IMG/VR virus record: IMGVR_UViG_3300046834_000025
Span: 1-64,000 of that record
DNA from: a virus
Direction: 5' to 3' (one strand)
DNA length: 64,000 bases
The stretch's first letter is position 1, and every line of letters begins with the position of its first letter. Shown here in pieces: positions 33,307 to 53,889 of the stretch. Both the position numbers and the translations under genes were made by a program. Under the pieces are notes generated by a model that worked only from the letters and a program-made list of their open reading frames with translations, was not told the DNA's origin and searched no databases.

Positions 33307-33640
33307 GAACACCGGCGCAGTCAAGATGGTCACGGACCTGTTGAAGCACGAGTGGGCATCAAGGGAGGTTGGTAAAAGCGTTCTCATCAATCCCGTCATC
33401 TTCGCAGCAAAGAACAATCTCTCAGCAGAGGTAGTCACGGGTGCCTTGCAGGATATCGCTCGCCCCGGTGCACCTCACACCTGGATCACCCGTGTTGCAA
33501 AGGGTGTCTATGAGATCGTAAGCGAGCCCATGAGTGCGCGTGAAGCGAGCGGTAATACCTCGCATCACTCGCGTATCAGTGCGCTCGAAGCTGAAGTCGC
33601 AGATCTCCGTGACATCCTTAAGCGTGCTGGACTCATCTGA
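33296..33640 (+). CDS. Winged-helix-like protein with coiled coil
   Basis: 114 residues. The N-terminal ~75 residues resemble a small winged-helix (FAAKNNLSAEVVTGALQDIA, then ITRVAKGVYEIV), ending with a coiled coil (ISALEAEVADLRDILKRAGL). Ribosome cassette GAGAGGAAACCG upstream. Possible DNA-binding regulator (inference). Confidence 0.65.
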   Translation: MNSKNTGAVKMVTDLLKHEWASREVGKSVLINPVIFAAKNNLSAEVVTGALQDIARPGAPHTWITRVAKGVYEIVSEPMSAREASGNTSHHSRISALEAEVADLRDILKRAGLI

Positions 33641-33702
33641 TCCTGCCGACCAGGATGGTGCCGGTCTTCGGAGAGACCGGCGCTGTCTGGGCCGACTGGC
33701 TC
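33638..33702 (+). repeat. Intergenic double-hairpin repeat, copy 1
   Basis: Starts with the stop codon of the upstream gene. Two hairpins: ATCCTG-N5-CAGGAT and GCCGGTCT-N6-AGACCGGC, then GCTGTCTGGGCCGACTGG. The second stem is one pair longer than in the other copies and both sides of the extra pair changed together. Confidence 0.85.
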
Positions 33703-33728: not shown

Positions 33729-34250
33729 ATGAGCAACGCCGACCGGACTCGCGAAGCGAAGCCAGCCTGCCCGTTCGACGGCGCGACCGTCCGTGACAGC
33801 AACGGACAGTGCCACTGCAGGAACGTCCTGTACCGTGAGTGGCAGAAGGACCTCTCCATCAAGGACGACATGACCCTGATCTTCAACAAGGCTCTCCTGG
33901 ACGGCGACTCGATCGAGACCGCTCTCGCTGCCGTGCGCGCCGAATTCCCTCACCTGGTTCGCACCCGGAAGATCAACGCGACGCCCACGCCCGCTGCCCC
34001 GCCTGCCGTGGTCGAGACGCCTGCCGTGGTCGAGGACGAGAAGAAGCCGACGACCGCCGAGATCATCAAGGACGAGGTGGCCGTGGAGAAGGCGGAGAAG
34101 CCTCGCTACGTCCTCGCGTTCGTGCCGTCCGGCCAGACCACGGAGTACGCTCGCAAGGACGCCGCCATCAAGGCTGGTGTGCGCTCTGGTGGCGAGTGGA
34201 CCGTCAGCTACAAGGGCAAGAAGGTCGCTCAGTCCGATGAACTGCTCTGA
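33729..34250 (+). CDS. Hypothetical protein with Pro/Ala/Val linker
   Basis: 173 residues: N-terminal Cys motif (CPFDGATVRDSNGQCHCRN), helical middle (LIFNKALLDGDSIETALAAV), a low-complexity linker (TPTPAAPPAVVETPAVVEDE) and a small C-terminal beta domain. GGGAAACCGACC before the ATG. No family recognised. Confidence 0.68.
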   Translation: MSNADRTREAKPACPFDGATVRDSNGQCHCRNVLYREWQKDLSIKDDMTLIFNKALLDGDSIETALAAVRAEFPHLVRTRKINATPTPAAPPAVVETPAVVEDEKKPTTAEIIKDEVAVEKAEKPRYVLAFVPSGQTTEYARKDAAIKAGVRSGGEWTVSYKGKKVAQSDELL

Positions 34251-34307
34251 TCCTGCCGACCAGGATGGTGCCGGTCTCCGACCGGCGCTGTCTGGGCCGA
34301 CTGGCTC
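34248..34307 (+). repeat. Intergenic double-hairpin repeat, copy 2
   Basis: 60 bp starting at the stop codon; hairpins ATCCTG-N5-CAGGAT and GCCGGTC-N3-GACCGGC. Identical to copy 3. Confidence 0.88.
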
Positions 34308-34335
34308 GATTCGAACCGAGAGAAGGAAACTTACT

Positions 34336-34647
34336 ATGAGCACCATCACCACCACCGTTCTCCCCGCCAAGCAGTCCCGTGGCACCGTTGCGATCCTCAA
34401 CACCGTGCGCTGGATCGGCACCGGCTTCCACCTCCTGATCGCCGCGATCCTCCTGCTCATGTCCCTGGTCGCGATGTTCACGGCTGACAACGGCTTCCTG
34501 GTCTTCCTCGGTGGCCTCCTCGGTGTCGGCATGACCCTCGTGTTCGGCGCGCTGTTCTACGCGACCGTGGGTTGGTTCGTCGACACGCTGAGCCAGCTCA
34601 ACCAGATCGCTGCCAACACTGCTCCCACCAGCATCACCGCTCTCTGA
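34336..34647 (+). CDS. Two-helix membrane protein
   Basis: 103 residues with membrane segments FHLLIAAILLLMSLVAMFTA and LVFLGGLLGVGMTLVFGALF. Short polar ends. Lies between two copies of the hairpin repeat and upstream of the secreted protein and sortase, so it may belong to a surface-acting set (inference). Confidence 0.72.
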   Translation: MSTITTTVLPAKQSRGTVAILNTVRWIGTGFHLLIAAILLLMSLVAMFTADNGFLVFLGGLLGVGMTLVFGALFYATVGWFVDTLSQLNQIAANTAPTSITAL

Positions 34648-34704
34648 TCCTGCCGACCAGGATGGTGCCGGTCTCCGACCGGCGCTGTCTGGGCCGACTG
34701 GCTC
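34645..34704 (+). repeat. Intergenic double-hairpin repeat, copy 3
   Basis: Exact 60-bp copy of copy 2, again starting at a stop codon. Confidence 0.88.
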
Positions 34705-34738
34705 GTGATTGCACCACTCACCTCACGGAAGAGAGACC

Positions 34739-36061
34739 ATGACTAGGTTCAGAATCGCAACGATCGCCATCCTGGCGGTGGTGATCGCTTGCTTCGCATG
34801 GAACTTGACTGCTCCTGCGCAGGCAACCAGCACGGACTGCGTGCCGCAGGCTGCCTACGACGAGACCGTCGTGGACAAGGCTGCCTGGGACGAGACCGTC
34901 ACCGACAAGGCTGCCTGGGACGAGACCGTCATCGACACGGCTGCCATCGATCGGTGGTACTCCTGGACGGGTGGTCCCTCCGACTCGCACCCTGCTCCGC
35001 CTGCAGGCTCGTGGCAGGTGGACAACGGTAGCCACGACGGCTTCGACCAGAGCCCTGGTTTGCTGCAGCGGGACAAGGGCAACAGTGGCAACAGCGACTG
35101 GTTCTACCACCTGGTCGTTGCGGAGGTGTCTCACGTCGTCCACCACGCCGCTGAGACTCACGTCGTCCACCACGCCGCTGAGACTCACGTCGTCCACCAC
35201 GATGCTGTGACGTGCCCGCCTCCGGCGACCACCACGATCACCACACCTCCGGGTGACGACGAGGAGACGACCACGCCTCCGGTCACCACCACGCCGACCG
35301 GCCACAAGTACTACGTCTGCAAGTACGTTGGCACGCCTGGTGAGGACGAGCGTCCTCAGCCGAGTGACCAGAACCCGATCTTCGTCGACGAGCACTCCAT
35401 CGCCTCGTTCCCGAACATCGTCATCGGCGCGTTCTTCGCTGACGCACAGGGTCGCTCGAAGGTGATCGCTGGTCCGTACGACAAGAAGCTCGATGTCGAG
35501 CCTGGCATCGAGGCATGTGGCGGAACGACAACCACCACGACCACACCGCCGACCACCACCACGCCGAACGGCTTCCCGGTTCCGGCTCTGTTCAACGCTG
35601 CGCCGACTCCGGCAACGTGTGTCTCTGCCGGAGTGTTCAACGATGGCGCTCTCGGTGGTGTCCTGATCGACACCTCTCCCTCGGGTCTGACCAAGGTGTA
35701 CTCCTTCGCGGACGACGCCTTCCGGCTCGTGGTCAGCCGCGAGACTGCCGGAGAGGTGGGCCTGTGGCTGGTGCCGTTCGAAGAGGGCCTTACGTTCTCG
35801 GGTCTGTCCGATGCCTGGACCGACAACGGTGACGGAACATTCTCTCGCACCATCATTCTCCCCGCTCAGTTGAGCGGTGAGGACTGCCCGACGACCACGA
35901 CCACGCCGCCGACGACGACCACCACGGTCCCGCCGACGACGACCACGACCGTGCCGCCGACGACGGTGACCACGACCGTGCCACCGACGGAGAAGCCGAA
36001 GCCTGCTCCCAAGCCGGTCACGCCCAAGCCGTCTCGTTCCGTTCTGTCGCACACCCTCTGA
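34739..36061 (+). CDS. Secreted Thr/Pro-rich surface protein with short repeats
   Basis: 440 residues. N-terminal signal or anchor helix (ATIAILAVVIACFAWNLTA-PAQA). Then three ~11-residue repeats around DETVVDKAAW and three ~9-residue repeats HVVHHAAET (tandem at DNA level). Thr/Pro stalks (TTTTTTTPPTTTT and a long C-terminal run) separate two globular parts. The second (PALFNAAPTPATCVSAGVF ... EDC) shares its PTPATC-type opening and closing Cys with the secreted protein at 43.5 kb. C-terminus is Lys/Pro-rich without an LPxTG-type signal. 25 bp upstream of the sortase gene. Confidence 0.8.
   Translation: MTRFRIATIAILAVVIACFAWNLTAPAQATSTDCVPQAAYDETVVDKAAWDETVTDKAAWDETVIDTAAIDRWYSWTGGPSDSHPAPPAGSWQVDNGSHDGFDQSPGLLQRDKGNSGNSDWFYHLVVAEVSHVVHHAAETHVVHHAAETHVVHHDAVTCPPPATTTITTPPGDDEETTTPPVTTTPTGHKYYVCKYVGTPGEDERPQPSDQNPIFVDEHSIASFPNIVIGAFFADAQGRSKVIAGPYDKKLDVEPGIEACGGTTTTTTTPPTTTTPNGFPVPALFNAAPTPATCVSAGVFNDGALGGVLIDTSPSGLTKVYSFADDAFRLVVSRETAGEVGLWLVPFEEGLTFSGLSDAWTDNGDGTFSRTIILPAQLSGEDCPTTTTTPPTTTTTVPPTTTTTVPPTTVTTTVPPTEKPKPAPKPVTPKPSRSVLSHTL
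34857..34947 (+). repeat. Tandem ~33-bp coding repeat
   Basis: Three imperfect copies around GACGAGACCGTC encoding the DETV repeat of the secreted protein. Confidence 0.7.
35128..35208 (+). repeat. Tandem 27-bp coding repeat
   Basis: Three copies of CACGTCGTCCACCACGCCG-type units encoding HVVHHAAET; nearly exact at DNA level. Confidence 0.72.
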
Positions 36062-36086
36062 TCCACTAGCCCGAAGGGAGAGCACG

Positions 36087-36719
36087 ATGAAGACAACTGC
36101 AGCAGCGATCACCGTGCTCTCCCTTCTGGCCGGAGGAGCTACCCTCTTCAGTCTTGACCAGCAGGCACCGCCTGCGCGGCGCACTCTGCCCGTTTCTGCA
36201 CCGCTCTCGGTACCAGCACCCGTCACCATCACCGTGCCGACCACGGCACACACGACCACGACCAGGGCCGTCTCTGTGCCGAAGGTGAAGGTTGGGCAGC
36301 GCATGGCTGTCCTCGACCTCCCTCATGCCGGAAAGATCACGATCAAACAGGGCACCAACAACCTGGACCGCGAGACCTCGATCCTCAACACTGGCGCAGC
36401 AGTTCACTACGTGGACAGCGCGAAGTGGTTCGGAGACGGCGTGTTCGCGATGTCCGGCCACCGAACGACCTACGGTGCCGTCTTCAACAAGCTAGACAAG
36501 ATGAAGAAGGGAGACATCGCCACTGTCACGACCAAGGACGGCGTCTTCAAGTACCGCTACCTGGACACCCGAATCGTGACGCCGGACAAGATGTGGGTGC
36601 TCGATCCCACCGAGAAGAAGGAGTACCGACACCTCAAGGATGGTGGTCTCGTGATGACTGCCTGCCACCCGAAGCACTCAGCCCGTCAGAGGATCGTTGT
36701 CCTCTGGAAGGAGATCTGA
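36087..36719 (+). CDS. Sortase (class E-like transpeptidase)
   Basis: 210 residues. N-terminal membrane anchor (TAAAITVLSLLAGGATLF), Thr/Pro linker, then a sortase fold: catalytic His in AMSGHRTTYGAVF (about 126), Cys in VMTACHPKHS (about 195), Arg in SARQRIVV (about 203). The order and spacing match class E-type sortases, which anchor proteins to actinobacterial cell walls. It follows a Thr/Pro-rich secreted protein. No matching LAxTG/LPxTG substrate was found in the window, so its target may be a host protein or lie outside. Confidence 0.87.
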   Translation: MKTTAAAITVLSLLAGGATLFSLDQQAPPARRTLPVSAPLSVPAPVTITVPTTAHTTTTRAVSVPKVKVGQRMAVLDLPHAGKITIKQGTNNLDRETSILNTGAAVHYVDSAKWFGDGVFAMSGHRTTYGAVFNKLDKMKKGDIATVTTKDGVFKYRYLDTRIVTPDKMWVLDPTEKKEYRHLKDGGLVMTACHPKHSARQRIVVLWKEI

Positions 36720-36862
36720 TGCACGTCAACGGCCAGGAGGCGACCCGCTGCGAGCGGTGCAGTCACCCGCAGGGTGCCTGGGCCACCTACATCCCCACGG
36801 ACGAGTGGGAAGCACACGTTCAGTGGCACAAGGAAACTGACGCAAAGGAGAAAGAAGCATGA
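36719..36862 (+). CDS. 47-residue zinc-finger-like protein
   Basis: CERCSHPQGAWATYIPTDEW followed by EAHVQWH gives a C-x2-C...H-x4-H spacing. TGATG overlap with the sortase. Function unknown. Confidence 0.62.
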   Translation: MHVNGQEATRCERCSHPQGAWATYIPTDEWEAHVQWHKETDAKEKEA

Positions 36863-37089
36863 GCGCGCCAGGAGTGCTCCGCACCAAGAAGAAGCGGTGC
36901 GTCTGGTGCGCCAATGAGAAGGCTCGCACGTCGAAGACGGCCTGGCCGATTGTCGACACGACCGGCGTGGTCATCAGGTGGATCACGCTTTGGGCCTGCC
37001 AGCCGTGCCTGTGGGTCAACATGGAGAAGCGAGAGTGGCTGACTGCGCGTGAGCTACGAATCGCCGAAAGAATGAGGGTACCAGCATGA
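36859..37089 (+). CDS. Small CxxC protein, 76 residues
   Basis: CVWCANEKARTSKTAWPIVD and ACQPCLWVNMEKREW give two CxxC pairs, likely a zinc ribbon. ATGA overlaps both ends. Confidence 0.65.
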   Translation: MSAPGVLRTKKKRCVWCANEKARTSKTAWPIVDTTGVVIRWITLWACQPCLWVNMEKREWLTARELRIAERMRVPA

Positions 37090-37400: not shown

Positions 37401-37489
37401 GCCCACAGTGGAGACGGCGCATCATCGCTGTCGACCTCGTGATCATCGTGTTCGGCCTGTCCTACATCGCGTACAGGCTGTTCTCGTGA
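37397..37489 (+). CDS. 30-residue membrane micropeptide
   Basis: Basic start (MSPQWRRRIIAVDL) and one membrane helix (VIIVFGLSYIAYRLF). ATGA and GTGA overlaps on either side. Confidence 0.57.
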   Translation: MSPQWRRRIIAVDLVIIVFGLSYIAYRLFS

Positions 37490-37671
37490 AGCCGGTCAGG
37501 GCTGAGGCTGCAGTTCTCCACTGTCCCAACTGTGGTGCCAAGCCGAACCGTCCATGCACCAAGGCCGCTGAGCGCGGTCGGCGTCCGATTCCCTGGTTGC
37601 ACCTAGGCAGAGAGCTTGCCGCTGACCGGCTGTTGGAGCCTGATGACCTCTGGAAGGAGCCAGAGCGGTGA
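37486..37671 (+). CDS. Zinc-ribbon protein, 61 residues
   Basis: CPNCGAKPNRPCTKAAERGR then WLHLGRELAADRLL; the CPxCGAxPxxPC...H layout is a common phage zinc-finger protein also seen at 48.05 kb. GTG start overlapping the previous stop. Confidence 0.68.
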   Translation: MKPVRAEAAVLHCPNCGAKPNRPCTKAAERGRRPIPWLHLGRELAADRLLEPDDLWKEPER

Positions 37672-43493: not shown

Positions 43494-43542
43494 GATCGAA
43501 CGTACCAGTCGACCGGCTGGACGAGTAGTGGAAGGAATCACA

Positions 43543-44823
43543 GTGTTCAAGAAGAGCCTGCTCTGTCTGTGTTCGAGCGTTGCGCTCATTCTCGGCATGG
43601 GCCTCATCGCCTCTCCGGCTGAGGCTGCTCCGGGTGACGAGTTCATCGTCAACGGCGACTTCAGCGACTACGACCCGGCGACTGGCGCGATCACGGACGG
43701 CGTGACGACGACCGACTTCTCGCTCACCACCTCTCTCGCTGAGGCATCTTCGCCTGGCAACGGGGACATGTACGACCCCGGCGTGTACGCCGTCTCGACC
43801 AACGCGGGCGCGCTCCACAACCAGTGGATCGAGCAGGCGGGCGACAACCCCAAGATGGTCCTCAACGGCTTCACCGAAGGCGTGCAGACCGTCTGGCAGC
43901 AGACCGCTGACGGCGTCACCTGCGACACGCCCGGATCGACCATCGGGTTCGAGTTCACCGCTGATGTCGCCAACGTCCTTCCGCTCGACCAGTACAGCGA
44001 CGGCGGAGCGAACATTTCGGTCTACATCAACGACCAGCTCATCGGCTCCGCCGACCTCACATCCAACGACGGTACGCCCGTGTCGATCTCGAGCGCGATG
44101 GTTCCGGCTGCTGATGCGTTCGTCATCGAGGTTCGGAACAGCGCGACCGTCTATGTCGGCAACGACTTCTCGCTCGACAACCTGTCGCTGGTCCAGACCG
44201 GCGATTGCACCGCTCCGGTGGCCGTCCTGTTCGATGTCGCGCCGACCGACCCGACGTGTGAAGCCGATGGCTCGCTCGACACCTCGCTGTTCCCGATCGT
44301 CCGCGAGGGCTACACCCTCACCGTCGACCGGGCCTTCGACGGTCCCGGCGACTACGTGATCACTGCCACCGCTGCTGACGGCTTCTTCTTCTCCGGCGAC
44401 GGCGACCCGTTCGTCCGCTCCGTGACTGTCACCGTGGGCGAACGTCTGCCCGCTGCGGAGTGCCGTGTTGGTGGGCTCACGATCGGCTACTACAAGAACC
44501 ACGCCGTCTCCGAGGCTACCTGGGATGCGGCACGCGCCGGTCTGAACACCCTGTTCGGGGCGTACCCGAACTGGAACAACGCGCTCGCGGTGCTGAACGC
44601 CAAGCCGACCAATGACGGCTCGGTGCAGTTGCTCCGTCAGGCAATCGCGTTCGCTCTGAACGTCGAGACCATCGACGGCTTCGCTGAGAACATCATGCCG
44701 AACGGCATGACCGCCGAGGCGTACCTCGACTACCTGAACGCCACGCCGACAGCGTGGGACACCAGGTCGGAACGGCTCGCGATCGCTGCGATCCTCGACG
44801 CTGCCAACCAGCACGTCGTCTGA
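43543..44823 (+). CDS. Secreted multidomain protein
   Basis: 426 residues with a Sec signal peptide (VFKKSLLCLCSSVALILGMG ... SPAEA|APGDE). Residues ~30-220 form a jelly-roll-like domain (NGDFSDYDPATGAI ... YINDQLIGSADL). Next a ~90-residue domain opening VAPTDPTC and closing AAEC, homologous to one in the 34.7-kb protein. The C-terminal part begins TIGYYKNHAVSEATWDAA, recalling 'FWKNH' extracellular modules. GTG start with GGAAGGA. Has its own regulated promoter. Probably acts outside the cell on host or competing phage (inference). Confidence 0.8.
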   Translation: MFKKSLLCLCSSVALILGMGLIASPAEAAPGDEFIVNGDFSDYDPATGAITDGVTTTDFSLTTSLAEASSPGNGDMYDPGVYAVSTNAGALHNQWIEQAGDNPKMVLNGFTEGVQTVWQQTADGVTCDTPGSTIGFEFTADVANVLPLDQYSDGGANISVYINDQLIGSADLTSNDGTPVSISSAMVPAADAFVIEVRNSATVYVGNDFSLDNLSLVQTGDCTAPVAVLFDVAPTDPTCEADGSLDTSLFPIVREGYTLTVDRAFDGPGDYVITATAADGFFFSGDGDPFVRSVTVTVGERLPAAECRVGGLTIGYYKNHAVSEATWDAARAGLNTLFGAYPNWNNALAVLNAKPTNDGSVQLLRQAIAFALNVETIDGFAENIMPNGMTAEAYLDYLNATPTAWDTRSERLAIAAILDAANQHVV

Positions 44824-48423: not shown

Positions 48424-48897
48424 ATGGCTAAGAAGGGCGAGCGGACTGCTGACCGGGTGCAGGTCACCTGTCCGTGTGGCACAGAGTTCGAAGTCACCAG
48501 ACGCCGGTTCGAGGAAGGCCGTGGTCGGCGGTGCTCCAAGCCGTGTACCTACAAGTACATGGAACGCCCAAGTGGTTTGACGTACAACATCGTTCAGGAG
48601 AACGCAGCCTGGAAGAAGCCTGGCGATGAGCCCTGGAACAAGGGCATGGTCATGAAGGACGAGATCACCTACAAGGAGCTTCACAAGTGGGTTGCACGAC
48701 ACCGTGAGAAGACTGGTGTGTGCGAGCACTGTGGAGAAACACGCAAGACCGAGTGGGCAAACAAGAGTCATACGTACCAACGCGACCTGGCCGACTGGCT
48801 TGAGTTGTGTAAGAAATGTCATGGCAAGCATGACAGCGGAGAGAATCGAGGCAAAGCCGTGGAAAAGTTCGGAGTGAAGCAGGTGGCTTGCAGATGA
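48424..48897 (+). CDS. HNH endonuclease at the 5' end of the epimerase gene
   Basis: 157 residues. An N-terminal Cys4 motif (CPCGTEFEV...CSKPC), then a NUMOD-like basic part (EPWNKGMVMKDEITYKELHK) and an HNH-like core with CEHCGETRKTEWANKSH and CKKCHGKHD. The ATG lies just inside the truncated epimerase copy and its stop overlaps the intact epimerase ATG. Confidence 0.82.
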   Translation: MAKKGERTADRVQVTCPCGTEFEVTRRRFEEGRGRRCSKPCTYKYMERPSGLTYNIVQENAAWKKPGDEPWNKGMVMKDEITYKELHKWVARHREKTGVCEHCGETRKTEWANKSHTYQRDLADWLELCKKCHGKHDSGENRGKAVEKFGVKQVACR

Positions 48898-49988
48898 CCA
48901 AGCGCGTACTCCTCAGCGGAGCGGGTGGCTTCGCTGGCTCGCACGCTCTGCGGCACATCCTGGCGACGACAGACTGGGATGTCGTTGCGCCGGTCACGTT
49001 CTCTCACAAGGGTCTCAGCGACCGTATCCGACTTGCGATGGACGACATGCCGGAAGCCGCCACACGAGTCAAGGTCCTACGCTGCGACCTGGCCGCGTCG
49101 ATCAGTCCCGTGACGGACGACGCCTTCGGCCACATCGACTACGTGCTGAACTTCGCCTCTGAGTCGCACGTCGATCGCTCCATCCGGCAGCCTGGTCCGT
49201 TCATCCGCAACAACGTTGCACTCATGACGCACCTGCTCGACTGGGCGGCCAGCCGTTCAGAGCTCCAGGCTTTCATCCAGATCTCGACGGACGAGGTGTA
49301 CGGTCCCGCGCCAGTCGGCTACAACCACCACGAGTGGCACGACCAGCACTTGCCGTCGAACCCGTACAGTGCGAGCAAGGCTGCGATGGAGGACATCGCC
49401 TTCGCGTACTGGCGCACCTACGATCTGCCGATCGTGATCACGAACACGATGAACCTCGTCGGCGAGACGCAGGATGCCGAGAAGTTCGTGCCGATGACGA
49501 TCAGCAAGGTTCTCAACGGCAAGCCGATGACCATCCACGCCAGCAGGTCCGGCAAGCCTGGCAGTAGGTTCTACCTCCACGCTCGCAACCAGGCTGACGG
49601 CGTGCTGCACGTCCTAAAGTACCTCACGCAGGCAAGGACGGTCGAGTTCCAGGGCAGCACCCGCCTCTCGTGGGATCACGTCACCGACCAGGAGACCGGC
49701 GAAAGCCTGCTCCATAGCGAGGGTGGCACCAAGCCGTTCCGCTACCACATCGTTGGTGAGCGCGAGGTTGACAACCTCGAGATGGCACAGATGATCGCTC
49801 AGGCAGTTGGAAAGCCGCTGCAGTATGACCTCGTGGACTTCCATTCGAGTCGTCCTGGACACGATCTTCGCTACGGGTTGGACGGCGAGAAACTGGCAGG
49901 CATCGACTGGGCACCTCCGGTGCCGCTGGACGAGAGCCTGCAGCGCATGGTGAAGTGGACCCTCGATCACCCGGAATGGCTGCTATGA
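48894..49988 (+). CDS. NAD-dependent epimerase/dehydratase, dTDP-glucose 4,6-dehydratase-like
   Basis: 364 residues, extended SDR. Rossmann motif GAGGFAGSH at 9-17, ASESHVDRSI, catalytic STDEVYG around 130 and NPYSASKAAME (Tyr/Lys) around 155-162. The T-D-E-V-Y-G form points to RmlB-type dehydratases that make keto-deoxy sugars. Followed by three glycosyltransferases, so it likely supplies or edits a sugar for virion, DNA or host-surface glycosylation (inference). Flanked on both ends by HNH cassettes. Confidence 0.87.
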   Translation: MTKRVLLSGAGGFAGSHALRHILATTDWDVVAPVTFSHKGLSDRIRLAMDDMPEAATRVKVLRCDLAASISPVTDDAFGHIDYVLNFASESHVDRSIRQPGPFIRNNVALMTHLLDWAASRSELQAFIQISTDEVYGPAPVGYNHHEWHDQHLPSNPYSASKAAMEDIAFAYWRTYDLPIVITNTMNLVGETQDAEKFVPMTISKVLNGKPMTIHASRSGKPGSRFYLHARNQADGVLHVLKYLTQARTVEFQGSTRLSWDHVTDQETGESLLHSEGGTKPFRYHIVGEREVDNLEMAQMIAQAVGKPLQYDLVDFHSSRPGHDLRYGLDGEKLAGIDWAPPVPLDESLQRMVKWTLDHPEWLL

Positions 49989-50504
49989 CCAAACGGTGTC
50001 CCCGGTGTACGCGAGATCTTCCACACTCTGAGTTCGGAAGGGATAGCTGGAAACGAGACGGCCTTCAAACCTACTGCCGGACATGTTGTTCAGCGAGAAT
50101 GCAAGAGCACAAGATTCGGACAAACAAGCGTTGTCCAGACTGTGAGGCTCTCATCAGCCCCTATCGAGATCGTTGCCGCAAATGTTCTACTCTGGGTGAG
50201 AGAAGTGCTCGTTGGATCAGTGGACGGCAGAGGGATCGGAAGGGCTACGTTATCCTCAGCATAGCACAAGCACCGGGTGCTCTCAAGACACGACAGGGGG
50301 GGACAGATAGCTGAGCACCGATACGTCATGGAGCAGATCCTTGGTCGCGCTCTCCTCCCAACAGAAACCGTCCACCACAAGAACGGGGTCCGGGATGACA
50401 ACCGACCTGAGAACCTCGAGCTCTGGTCTACCAGTCAGCCACCAGGCCAGCGAATCGAGGACAAGCTCCAATGGGCTCGTGAGTTCATCCGGCTGTACGG
50501 TTGA
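49985..50504 (+). pseudogene. HNH endonuclease with a G-run frameshift, at the 3' end of the epimerase gene
   Basis: First frame: zinc-rich N-terminus (CPRCTRDLPHSEFGRDSW, CRTCC, CPDC, CRKC) to ...RQGGTDS-stop. Second frame (+1), after a run of seven G at 50296-50302: QIAEHRYVMEQILGRALLPT, HHKNGVRDDNRPENLELW, an intact HNH_3 core. Six G would join the two. ATG overlaps the epimerase stop. Its own stop lies in a second copy of the epimerase 3' end (D-H-P-E-W-L). Decay, recoding or a homopolymer sequencing error are all possible. Confidence 0.8.
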
Positions 50505-50526
50505 TCACCCGGAATGGTTGCGTTGA
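50503..50526 (+). repeat. Recoded duplicate of the epimerase 3' end
   Basis: Encodes D-H-P-E-W-L-R-stop, matching D-H-P-E-W-L-L-stop at the end of the real gene (49965-49988). Fifteen bases are identical, then TGG-C/T-TGC diverges. Confidence 0.8.
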
Positions 50527-50547
50527 GGCAGGTCACCGCGTTATGAT
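50518..50547 (+). promoter_or_regulatory. Promoter for the second WhiB operon
   Basis: TTGCGT, 18 nt, TATGAT. The -35 box lies inside the duplicated epimerase end. Same TTGCRT type as the promoters at 20.15, 31.67 and 43.47 kb. Confidence 0.65.
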
Positions 50548-50661
50548 GACGAACAGCAGGGTCCGTGGTGGCCCGGAGGCAACGAAGACTACGAGCACTA
50601 GAGGTACACGTAGCTCGCTTCCCCTGTTACTAGTCTCCCTTTCAAAGACGAGAGGAAACCG

Positions 50662-50964
50662 ATGTCAACTGCCTCAATCTCAGGCACCATCGCCGGTTCC
50701 CGTCCTCTGTCACTAGGTTTCAACGTCGCCACTCCTCCACTTCTCATGGGTCGCAGCGTACTTCCGTGCGCCGGTCGTGCGAGCTTGTTCTTCCCCGCCA
50801 CCTACCGAAACTGGGCACGAGTCCGAGAGGCTTGTGCCCTCTGTGACACTTGTCCTGTAGTTCGCGAATGTCTGGCATGGGCCGTCGCCAGACCTGACCT
50901 CGACGGTATCTGGGGCGGGACCACACCGCCTCAACGTCGCCGAATACGAACAGGGAAAATCTGA
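50662..50964 (+). CDS. Second WhiB-like regulator
   Basis: 100 residues. Cys at PCAG, then CALCDTCPVVREC, and the GIWGGTTPPQRRRIR motif. The spacing fits WhiB, but the N-terminal ~30 residues differ from the 38.7-kb protein. GAGAGGAAACCG before the ATG; its stop overlaps the glycosyltransferase start. Confidence 0.85.
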   Translation: MSTASISGTIAGSRPLSLGFNVATPPLLMGRSVLPCAGRASLFFPATYRNWARVREACALCDTCPVVRECLAWAVARPDLDGIWGGTTPPQRRRIRTGKI

Positions 50965-52040
50965 TGCCAAAGCACGTCGTTGTGATCCCTGCCGACCACG
51001 GCGGATGCGGCCAGTACCGGCTTGTCTGGCCAGCACAGGCAGTCGCACACGCCCGACCAGACTGGCACGTCACGGTTCTTGAGCCAGATGGAATCCAGGC
51101 AGGCTTTCGCGACGGCATGTTCACTGGTGTTCGAGGCTTTCCGAACCCGCAGCCAGACTTGCTCGTAATGCAGAGAGTTGGCACGCCTGCGCAGTTCCAC
51201 ATCTTCAAGTGGGCGAGCGAGCAGGGTATCGCTACCGTGGTGGACTTCGATGACGCTATGTGGTGCATCGACAAGGACAACCTCGCGTGGAGAGCGTGGA
51301 ACGTCCGCAACCCTTACAACCAGCACTGGCGCACCTGTGAGGACGCCGCGAGGATCGCGGACCTGGTGACCGTAACAACTGTTGCACTGGCACAGCGGTA
51401 TGGCAAGAACCACCATCGTACCGAGGTCATCCCGAACAGGGTGCCGATCGCGGCGACCGGTCTTCCTCGCCACGAGGACAACGAGGTCTTCACGGCAGGG
51501 TGGTGCGGGTACACCAAGACGCACCCTGGCGACTGTACGGTGAGCGCGCCTGCAGCCCACGCCGTCTTGGACGACGGCGGTGCTCTCCGGGTCGTGGCCG
51601 ACCCCCTTGGTGCCGCGACCGAGTGGGGCATCGATCCGGCCAGGGTCGACCCCATCGGGCCGCAGAAGTTCGGGCCGGAGTACTACCGTTCGATCTCGAG
51701 GCTCGACCTCATGTTGGTGGGCCTCAAGGACACACCCTTCAACAGAGCCAAGAGCTTCCTCAAGGTACTTGAGGCTGGTGCCGTAGGCACGCCGTCGATT
51801 GCACCGGACAACCACCCGCACCGAGCCCTTGCCGCCACGGGTTACCCTGTCATTCTTGCGAGCTCACCGAGTGAGTGGGCCGATGCTGCAAAGCAGATCA
51901 AGGGCATCTGGGAGGCAGACGGACCAGAGTATATGCGCGAGCTTGTGTCTGACGCAACCGCCGCCAACTGGACGATCGAAGGCAACGCTGAACACTGGGC
52001 ACAAGCTTGGGAGCGCGCGATGCAAAGGAAGCACGGATGA
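50964..52040 (+). CDS. Glycosyltransferase (GT-B type)
   Basis: 358 residues. N-terminal GGCGQYRLVWPAQAVAHARP (donor-side glycine loop), central VVDFDDAMWCIDKDN and VIPNRVP, and C-terminal PFNRAKSFLKVLEAGAVGTP with the E-x7-E-like region of retaining GT-B enzymes. Transfers sugar to an unknown acceptor. Overlaps both neighbours. Confidence 0.82.
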   Translation: MPKHVVVIPADHGGCGQYRLVWPAQAVAHARPDWHVTVLEPDGIQAGFRDGMFTGVRGFPNPQPDLLVMQRVGTPAQFHIFKWASEQGIATVVDFDDAMWCIDKDNLAWRAWNVRNPYNQHWRTCEDAARIADLVTVTTVALAQRYGKNHHRTEVIPNRVPIAATGLPRHEDNEVFTAGWCGYTKTHPGDCTVSAPAAHAVLDDGGALRVVADPLGAATEWGIDPARVDPIGPQKFGPEYYRSISRLDLMLVGLKDTPFNRAKSFLKVLEAGAVGTPSIAPDNHPHRALAATGYPVILASSPSEWADAAKQIKGIWEADGPEYMRELVSDATAANWTIEGNAEHWAQAWERAMQRKHG

Positions 52041-52621
52041 AGAGACTGAAGTTCGCTGTCATCACAACGCACAACCGGCCAAGAGACTACCGGGACTGCT
52101 TGGCAGCGATTCGACCTCAAGTCGACCAGGTCTACACCGTCAGCCACCATGCGCCGTACACCAAGAAGTACCACGACCAGACAGCGGTGATCACGTTCCC
52201 GGATGCCCTGATCAACATCTCTGAGGCATGGAATCTCGGCTTGCGCGCGGCTGCTGTCAGAGCCAACTCTCATCCCTACGATGTTGCCGTCCTGAACGAC
52301 GATGCGATCGTGCCGGAGACTTGGTTCGAGACTGTAACAGCCTCAATGCGTAGGCTCAAAGCTTCTGCCGGTGCAGCACGTCGTAGGGACGATCCTCGCA
52401 TGGCAGGCTTCGCCTTCATCCTGGACGGCGGAGCAGGCATCTACGCCGACGAGCAGTTCCAGTGGTGGTATGGCGACACTGACATCGAGCGCCGTGTCGG
52501 CACGGTCGCTCAGCCCAACGGACTCGTGGTCGAACACCGGCATCCGAACTCGACCACGATCGGTGCCCTGGCCGAGATCGCCAAAGCAGATGCCCGTCGC
52601 TACGATCGGAAGTGGGCCTGA
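52037..52621 (+). CDS. Glycosyltransferase family 2-like protein
   Basis: 194 residues, GT-A type: FAVITTHNRPRDYRDCLAAI, then ISEAWNLGLRAA and VLNDDAIVPETWFE with the D-D-A metal motif. Shorter than full GT2 enzymes. ATGA overlap with the GT-B gene. Confidence 0.75.
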   Translation: MKRLKFAVITTHNRPRDYRDCLAAIRPQVDQVYTVSHHAPYTKKYHDQTAVITFPDALINISEAWNLGLRAAAVRANSHPYDVAVLNDDAIVPETWFETVTASMRRLKASAGAARRRDDPRMAGFAFILDGGAGIYADEQFQWWYGDTDIERRVGTVAQPNGLVVEHRHPNSTTIGALAEIAKADARRYDRKWA

Positions 52622-53121
52622 TGCACCCTGAAGCGCGAGAGGGCTTCGCACGGATGCTGGTGGATTCCGGCATCGATCCGTCCGACCGGATGCAAGTTCT
52701 CGATCTCGGTGGCCAGAACGTCAATGGGACGGTTCACGACCTGTTCACGCACCCTGGCACTGTCGTCACTACACTCGACCTGGAGAACGCCGACATCATC
52801 GCTGACGCGACGAGGTGGTCATCCGGCAAGCGGTACGACCTGGTGATGGCGACAGAGGTCTTCGAACACGTCAAGAACTGGCGTGCCGTGATTGAGACGG
52901 CATGGTCTGCACTGCGACCGGCTGGTGTCCTGATCGCCACCTGCGCCTCGACCAACCGGCCAGTCCACGGTGCGACCGGCGCACCGGCTCCGGCACCAGG
53001 GGAGTGGTACGAGAACGTCACGCCGGACGAACTGTCCGATGTGCTTGTCTACCTGTTCCACCGCTACAACATCGAGTACCGTTATCCTCCTGGCGATGCG
53101 TACATGTGGGGTGTCAAGTGA
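52621..53121 (+). CDS. SAM-dependent methyltransferase
   Basis: 166 residues, class I fold: VLDLGGQNVNGTV (motif I), TLDLENADIIAD, YDLVMATEVFEHVKNW (motif IV), WSALRPAGVLIATCAS. Likely methylates a sugar or other small group made by this cluster. TGATG with the upstream gene. Confidence 0.83.
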   Translation: MHPEAREGFARMLVDSGIDPSDRMQVLDLGGQNVNGTVHDLFTHPGTVVTTLDLENADIIADATRWSSGKRYDLVMATEVFEHVKNWRAVIETAWSALRPAGVLIATCASTNRPVHGATGAPAPAPGEWYENVTPDELSDVLVYLFHRYNIEYRYPPGDAYMWGVK

Positions 53122-53318
53122 GCGTTCAAGAGTCGATCGTTCGCGTCCAGAACCACGTCTGGACTCTCGACCTGGCCACGAACATGTGGAGCCTGTACGA
53201 CATGACTTTGCACCAAGTCAATCACTACTGGTGGTTGACGTGTGGCGATGGCTCGCAGTACAACTGTGGACCGGAGTCCGGTCCTGCATTCGAGCGAGCA
53301 ACCCGCTATGCACAGTGA
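53118..53318 (+). CDS. Hypothetical protein, 66 residues
   Basis: Aromatic-rich with VNHYWWLTCGDGSQYNCGPE near the end. GTG start overlapping the methyltransferase stop. No family recognised. Confidence 0.63.
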   Translation: MSVQESIVRVQNHVWTLDLATNMWSLYDMTLHQVNHYWWLTCGDGSQYNCGPESGPAFERATRYAQ

Positions 53319-53889
53319 CGTGACGGTTGTCATACCGACCATCGCACCTCGTGCGCACATGCTCGAGCGCGCGCTGAGAAGCGTTGACATCCAAACCTAC
53401 TCTCAGCTAGGTACCATCGTGGAGACCGACACGCAGCATCTCGGCGCAGCCATGACCAGGCAGCGCGGACTCGAACAGGTGCATACCAAGTGGGTTGCGT
53501 TCCTGGATGACGACGACGAGTTTGAGCCGTATCACGTTGAGTCCCTTCTCGAACACGCTTGGAAGACAGACGCAGACTTCGTCTTCTCTTGGTACCGTGT
53601 AATCGGCGGAACCGACCCTCGTGCAGACGAGTTCGGCAAGCCGTGGGACGAGTACAACCCCCGCCAGACCACGATCACGACCCTCGTTCGCACGGAACTC
53701 GCTCTGGCCGTTGGAGGATTCGTCGACCCGGACGACGATCTGCTGTCACCTGGTCGGCAATGTGCCGGAGAAGACTTCCGATTCACTAAGCGGATCAACA
53801 AGGCGGGCAAGATCGTTCATTTGCCAGAGAAGACATGGCGCTGGTACCACCACAGTTCGAACACGAGCGGTCTACCAACTCGCTGGTAG
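53308..53889 (+). CDS. Glycosyltransferase family 2
   Basis: 193 residues, GT-A: VVIPTIAPRAHMLERALRSV, AMTRQRGLEQVHTKWVAFLD-DDDEFEP (acidic metal motif), GGFVDPDDDL and a C-terminal GEDFRFTKRINKAGK with W-R-W-Y-H-H. Third glycosyltransferase of the cluster. Confidence 0.85.
   Translation: MHSDVTVVIPTIAPRAHMLERALRSVDIQTYSQLGTIVETDTQHLGAAMTRQRGLEQVHTKWVAFLDDDDEFEPYHVESLLEHAWKTDADFVFSWYRVIGGTDPRADEFGKPWDEYNPRQTTITTLVRTELALAVGGFVDPDDDLLSPGRQCAGEDFRFTKRINKAGKIVHLPEKTWRWYHHSSNTSGLPTRW

Follow-up and report, generated by a model that had tools for sequence, protein, structure and literature searches.

Sortases are the main tool with which Gram-positive bacteria dress their surface, and those of class E fasten proteins to the walls of actinobacteria. 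This class, represented by SrtE1 and SrtE2 of Streptomyces coelicolor (model NF033747; structures 5cuw and 5go5), is the closest described system to the locus presented here. In SrtE1, C320 and R329 are the catalytic positions, and Tyr229, placed in the beta3/beta4 loop, has been proposed as the reader of the Ala in LAXTG (PMC5148588). The phrase 'phage-encoded sortase' is absent from the open literature searched, a search outside which most of the subscription literature lies, while related searches returned, among the papers examined, only host, pilus or ICE sortases.

The window, that is the whole stretch of DNA analysed, comprises 64 kb of the 77,833-bp virus record IMGVR_UViG_3300046834_000025, which is classed as linear without end repeats and may be incomplete. 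The record encodes portal, terminase, tape measure, major head protein, major tail protein, head-tail adaptor and endolysin, as well as a WhiB regulator, and its DNA polymerase is closest to that of Glutamicibacter phage Montesquieu (48.5%), followed by that of Brevibacterium phage LuckyBarnes (47.1%); judged by these genes, it is a genuine tailed phage of actinobacteria. Since no tyrosine integrase was found in the record, the phage is probably lytic. The genes of interest belong to a plus-strand group of early-side genes, whereas the structural genes are encoded on the other strand. The features referred to below are the following:

34336..34647, plus strand: small membrane protein of 103 aa with two hydrophobic helices (by eye, from the translation), first gene of the envelope block
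34642..34705, plus strand: 64-nt intergenic hairpin element before the stalk gene, with an identical copy at 34245-34308 and a longer-stem variant at 33635-33698
34739..36061, plus strand: secreted stalk protein of 440 aa, recognised by repeats and composition, with the boundaries of its pieces set by eye
36087..36719, plus strand: sortase of 210 aa, recognised by Pfam PF04203, NCBIfam (class E best), PDB matches, alignment and an N-terminal hydropathy peak
37408..37671, plus strand: small phage-type zinc-finger protein, downstream (PF24623, 26.9 bits against a cut-off of 24)
43525..44823, plus strand: second secreted protein of 432 aa, family not recognised, an accessory insert without sorting signal
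33281, 38061, 39536, 40659, 43221, 44873, 47466 and 50649 (plus strand) and 12917 (minus strand): copies of TGAGAGGAAACCGATG, several of which overlap start codons

The preliminary description of this DNA had located the stalk and sortase genes correctly; they lie on the same strand, 25 bp apart. It had also placed 'small zinc proteins' downstream, which holds for the zinc-finger protein at 37408-37671; the products of 36719-36862 and 36859-37089 have CxxC motifs, without Pfam support as zinc proteins. Elsewhere in the genome, TGAGAGGAAACCGATG is present in nine copies with up to 2 mismatches (0.06 expected) and, from its positions, is a start-associated sequence with a ribosome-binding site. 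Such sequences have been reported for some mycobacteriophages. The interval 48888-53889 of the window encodes a sugar-nucleotide dehydratase/epimerase, glycosyltransferases and a methyltransferase, a sugar-modification cassette with no assigned target.

By homology, the product of 36087-36719 is a real sortase, the only one encoded in the record. It matches PF04203 at 71.2 bits (E 8.8e-20; Pfam cut-off 26.6), and its best PDB matches are 5go5, 5cuw (S. coelicolor SrtE1) and 5utt (E about 3e-11). The protein is made up of a predicted membrane anchor (about residues 5-23, with a single hydrophobic segment at about 6-23), a Thr/Pro linker (about 28-62) and a catalytic domain (about 66-208), the latter of which, given the hydrophobic N-terminus and the linker, is predicted to lie outside the membrane. 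The catalytic His125, Cys193 and Arg202 follow each other in the right order, as had been described, and stand on conserved columns: in an alignment with 34 bacterial homologues taken from the sampled actinobacterial genomes, G124-R126, C193, P195 and R202 are invariant or near-invariant, and the Cys-Arg spacing of 9 equals that of SrtE1. The codon-position GC of the gene has the pattern of a real gene. Single-sequence AlphaFold models of the sortase and of the stalk protein reached pLDDT values of 37 and 36 and were discarded, and the fold is not confirmed by them. From the match of the phage sortase to phrog_23668 (E 2.7e-7), a PHROGs family of unknown function, it may be deduced that further unannotated viral sortases probably exist.

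Among the NCBIfam class models, class E gives the best score (98 bits), followed by class D (46 bits); as the cut-off of NF033747 is 160, the enzyme is termed class-E-like. The class named in the preliminary description is the nearest one, although strict membership, as scored, falls short. The phage sortase has in common with the class E enzymes the catalytic His, Cys and Arg and the predicted N-terminal anchor with its linker. Moreover, Y108 aligns with the Tyr of the 'HY' motif of SrtE1 (Tyr229), 22 residues before H251, and the long beta6/beta7 loop is present, the alignment with SrtE1 being ungapped from P166 to the end and the stretch leading to the catalytic Cys equally long. The differences concern the motif around this Cys, which reads VMTACHP in the phage enzyme and TLTTCxP in class E sortases, the identity to the sampled bacterial homologues, which is at most about 41% over the domain, and the location of the gene, carried by a phage in whose record no substrate gene bears a sorting signal. 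The phage sortase takes no firm position in the tree, where its branch measures 2.42 changes per column, compared with a median of 0.5. The strong sortase match and the intact active site, despite this very long branch, indicate that the catalytic core was preserved as the remainder of the protein diverged; fast divergence of this kind argues for a working but re-tuned enzyme.

The stalk protein has a more composite architecture. A signal peptide (about residues 1-30, called by eye from a hydrophobic N-terminus with an AQA site) is followed by three YDETV/WDETV repeats (about 37-67; DETV at residues 41, 51 and 61, period 10), a Trp/Tyr-rich middle (about 70-125), three HVVHH repeats (132-154; at residues 132, 141 and 150, period 9), Thr/Pro linkers, two Cys-bounded domains (about 188-261 and 277-384) and a 40-residue Thr/Pro stalk (residues 384-423, Thr+Pro 80%), after which the protein ends in a Lys/Pro tail and SRSVLSHTL. 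Both kinds of repeat and the stalk had been recognised in the preliminary description. The repeats are also repeated as DNA, with spacings of 30 nt and 27 nt, and the DETV and HVVHH runs flank the middle piece, by eye, like two hairpin legs. No match to this protein was found in Pfam, PHROG, NCBIfam, PADLOC or PDB; its matches in actinobacterial genomes were rejected as Thr/Pro or simple-repeat low complexity (L043, L047 and L051 were read). In WDETV/HHDA-type proteins of two unrelated contigs (L068 and L072), K(A/E)AWDETV and HHDA-like runs likewise flank a middle piece and the proteins are exported, but one of these counterparts is a putative lipoprotein and the other a protein with a single membrane span. 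To our knowledge, no function has been established for repeat proteins of this type. Repeats as in L068 and L072 were also observed in an exported protein of a viral contig (L085), and the C-terminal HHPAE / CxxC / KEAWDETV unit of L072 resembles, by eye, two strands around a zinc knuckle.

A classical sorting signal combines a C-terminal motif, a hydrophobic segment and a basic tail, a combination that the stalk protein does not have: LPXTG/LAXTG motifs are missing from it, as had been noted before, and so is any C-terminal hydrophobic or membrane segment. A read-through or frameshift that would supply a sorting tail was sought in the other frames after 36061, and none was present. The preliminary suggestion that the sortase anchors the adjacent repeat protein thus finds neither motif nor hydrophobic segment to build on. 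The LAxTG-type proteins that it proposed to look for in the remaining genome did not appear either, since no recognisable gene with a credible sorting signal emerged in the 77.8-kb record from four scans, based on motif plus hydrophobic segment, on the Gram_pos_anchor model, on motif positions in predicted genes and, motif-free, on a hydrophobic segment plus basic tail. The motif-free scan recovers the secreted protein of a second phage described below, and so works on the expected type of tail. With no recognisable substrate encoded in the record, host wall proteins would be the most likely substrates, or else a phage protein on missing sequence.

Class-E-like sortases are rare in viral contigs. 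In 2.9 million of them, the strict pattern GHRxTYG..F........GD had 0 matches, and one further class-E-like sortase, in contig L087, came from an alignment-based scan; a third pattern returned L087 again and one chance match, contig L090, rejected because the DNA matched lies within a 2431-codon reading frame on the opposite strand. Records very near the genome of the window may be left out of these scans. Single-sequence searches found no close relative of the sortase or the stalk protein in INPHARED phages and IMG/VR, none of the stalk protein in plasmids and none of the sortase in 84,980 genomes, while tblastn with this, bacterial or L087 sortases gave weak, unannotated matches in fecal 'Bacteriophage sp.' records. 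A 394-kb viral record (G403), with a sortase of another type far from its repeat protein and a sigma-factor-like gene at the sortase locus, was excluded as possibly bacterial. In L091 (1408-2295; 394-kb record IMGVR_UViG_3300021400_002728), a sortase of 295 aa, class-B-like by eye and with a TLSTC motif, adjoins a sigma-factor-like gene; that record may belong to a huge phage or else be of bacterial origin.

The second case, L087 (IMGVR_UViG_3300030376_004686), is a 12.6-kb contig of 33% GC with endolysin and phage exonuclease genes, and its locus is:

L087, 5965-8441: adjoining genes for a secreted Thr-stalk protein and a class-E-like sortase, after the lysis genes

Class E is again the best model for this sortase (104.6 bits, likewise short of the cut-off), whose gene begins, with an overlapping start codon, before that of the 567-aa secreted protein has ended. 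The C-terminus of the latter (...TTTTTTTGTNLPLALLSISGVSSALFLGRNKRKND; the protein ends CPTTTTTTTGTNLPLALLSISGVSSALFLGRNKRKND) is sorting-signal-like, with a hydrophobic stretch and an RNKRK tail. In the tree, the nearest bacterial sortase belongs to genome G202 (moderate support, 91/84; sortase locus of 34% GC), whose own substrates end in LPDTG, LPTTG, LAETG or LAKTG, a hydrophobic segment and a basic tail. Given this likeness, the tail of the L087 protein is comparable to a sorting signal, its core being TTTTG, a possible cut site. The two phages are unrelated, yet in both a secreted Thr-stalk protein lies directly upstream of a class-E-like sortase with a Thr-rich linker; kinship of the two secreted proteins is not apparent by eye, and the stalk protein does not have the signal-like C-terminus of its L087 counterpart. 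The tree places the two phage sortases apart, with weak support, which suggests that such enzymes were acquired twice, and the same gene order in two phages supports, in general, a remodelling of the infected-cell surface.

This second phage also bears on the proposal of a covalent attachment, by the sortase and through a non-canonical signal, of the neighbouring stalk protein to the host wall, where it would serve as a decoy or receptor mask. The adjacency of the two genes on one strand, the Thr/Pro stalk, typical of wall proteins, and the signal-like tail in the same position in L087 speak for such a pairing; however, the Lys/Pro-rich, motif-free end of the stalk protein, with no hydrophobic segment, offers no membrane hold-up, and in its absence known sortases would not meet their substrate. 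This form of anchoring is considered unlikely. What stands of the preliminary interpretation is an intact class-E-like sortase among envelope genes, with a like order in a second phage; the anchoring of the stalk protein is not supported.

Two IMG/VR phages (L003 and L004) keep the surrounding gene order, namely helicase, deaminase, DUF932, then VRR-NUC-like nuclease, exonuclease, ssDNA-binding protein and DNA polymerase, with about 43-67% identity. Their DUF932-nuclease interval is about 2-2.7 kb, compared with about 7.5 kb here, and no sortase was found anywhere in their records. As these relatives share the flanking genes without the sortase, the block was acquired and retained, and by this comparison it is an accessory envelope module. 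The small membrane protein at its start has no significant family match. Each of the 64-nt elements starts at the stop codon of the preceding gene and forms a strong hairpin (z about -3.2 to -3.4), and together they precede three consecutive block genes (starts 33729, 34336 and 34739). They are possibly cassette boundaries or processing/regulatory hairpins, and the presence of near-identical elements before three genes looks like piecemeal gene addition. The second secreted protein lies between the ssDNA-binding protein and DNA polymerase genes, which are separated by about 50-220 bp in L003, L004, Montesquieu and LuckyBarnes but by 2.5 kb here. It shares a Cys-bounded domain with the stalk protein (about residues 280-384 of the latter), with a local score of 59 against 29 +/- 5.7 for shuffled sequences, 5.2 SD over the shuffles. 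Neither protein has a match in the libraries searched, and no homologue of the second one was found in 396 actinobacterial genomes, in a search without positive control.

The stalk protein might accordingly be unrelated to the sortase, the block simply collecting envelope genes as separate cargo. The near-identical hairpins make piecemeal addition possible, and the second secreted protein, 7 kb away, has no sortase of its own; nevertheless, the 25 bp between the stalk and sortase genes contain no hairpin element and an independent second phage has the same gene order, so that this explanation, too, is doubtful. An inactive remnant or a bacterial contamination of the assembly, which the long branch of the sortase could recall, is very improbable in view of the complete set of catalytic residues, the synteny of both flanks with other phages and the codon-position GC. 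That the stalk protein, repeat-rich and fibrous as it is, or some other product belongs to the virion or tail, with the sortase cross-linking virion parts, is hardly credible, as both proteins bear export signals at the N-terminus and their block is placed among early/replication genes, opposite in strand to the structural genes.

What can be read directly from the DNA is a sortase that has all its catalytic residues and a predicted N-terminal anchor, encoded next to a small membrane protein and the secreted stalk protein. Most likely, the sortase, predicted to be active, changes wall proteins of the infected cell. The fuller reading, i.e., an accessory envelope module in which the sortase acts on host wall proteins and the stalk protein is exported beside it, with an altered cell surface as the result, is held with confidence that is about evenly balanced. 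During infection, the sortase would be held in the host membrane and expose its active site to the exterior, where it would cleave sorting signals of the LAXTG/LPXTG type and join the proteins to the cell-wall precursor, as host class E sortases do. The stalk protein would be held at the surface in another way, or by a signal not recognisable by motif. The surface so altered, for example with hidden receptors, might keep out competing phages or stop progeny from sticking to debris. In favour of this wall-remodelling reading, both upstream neighbours of the sortase are predicted envelope proteins; against it stand the lack of a recognisable sorting signal in the record and a class E score under the curated cut-off. 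As to the benefit, superinfection exclusion is one possibility; receptor masking is plausible, with the prevention of progeny re-adsorption an equal candidate, and the masking or decoy role against superinfection put forward in the preliminary description is a guess. A broader view, in which a phage sortase with a surface protein forms a recurring, independently acquired wall-remodelling system, and substrate recognition here goes beyond the classical C-terminal signal, is offered tentatively, as an improbable extension.

A phage with its own sortase could dress the infected cell, and in actinobacteria this would allow superinfection to be excluded, or adhesion to be altered, directly at the level of proteins. 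The rarity of such enzymes in viral contigs (one match besides this record, at the sensitivity used) makes both cases stand out, and the two phages provide concrete, testable pairs of enzyme and partner.
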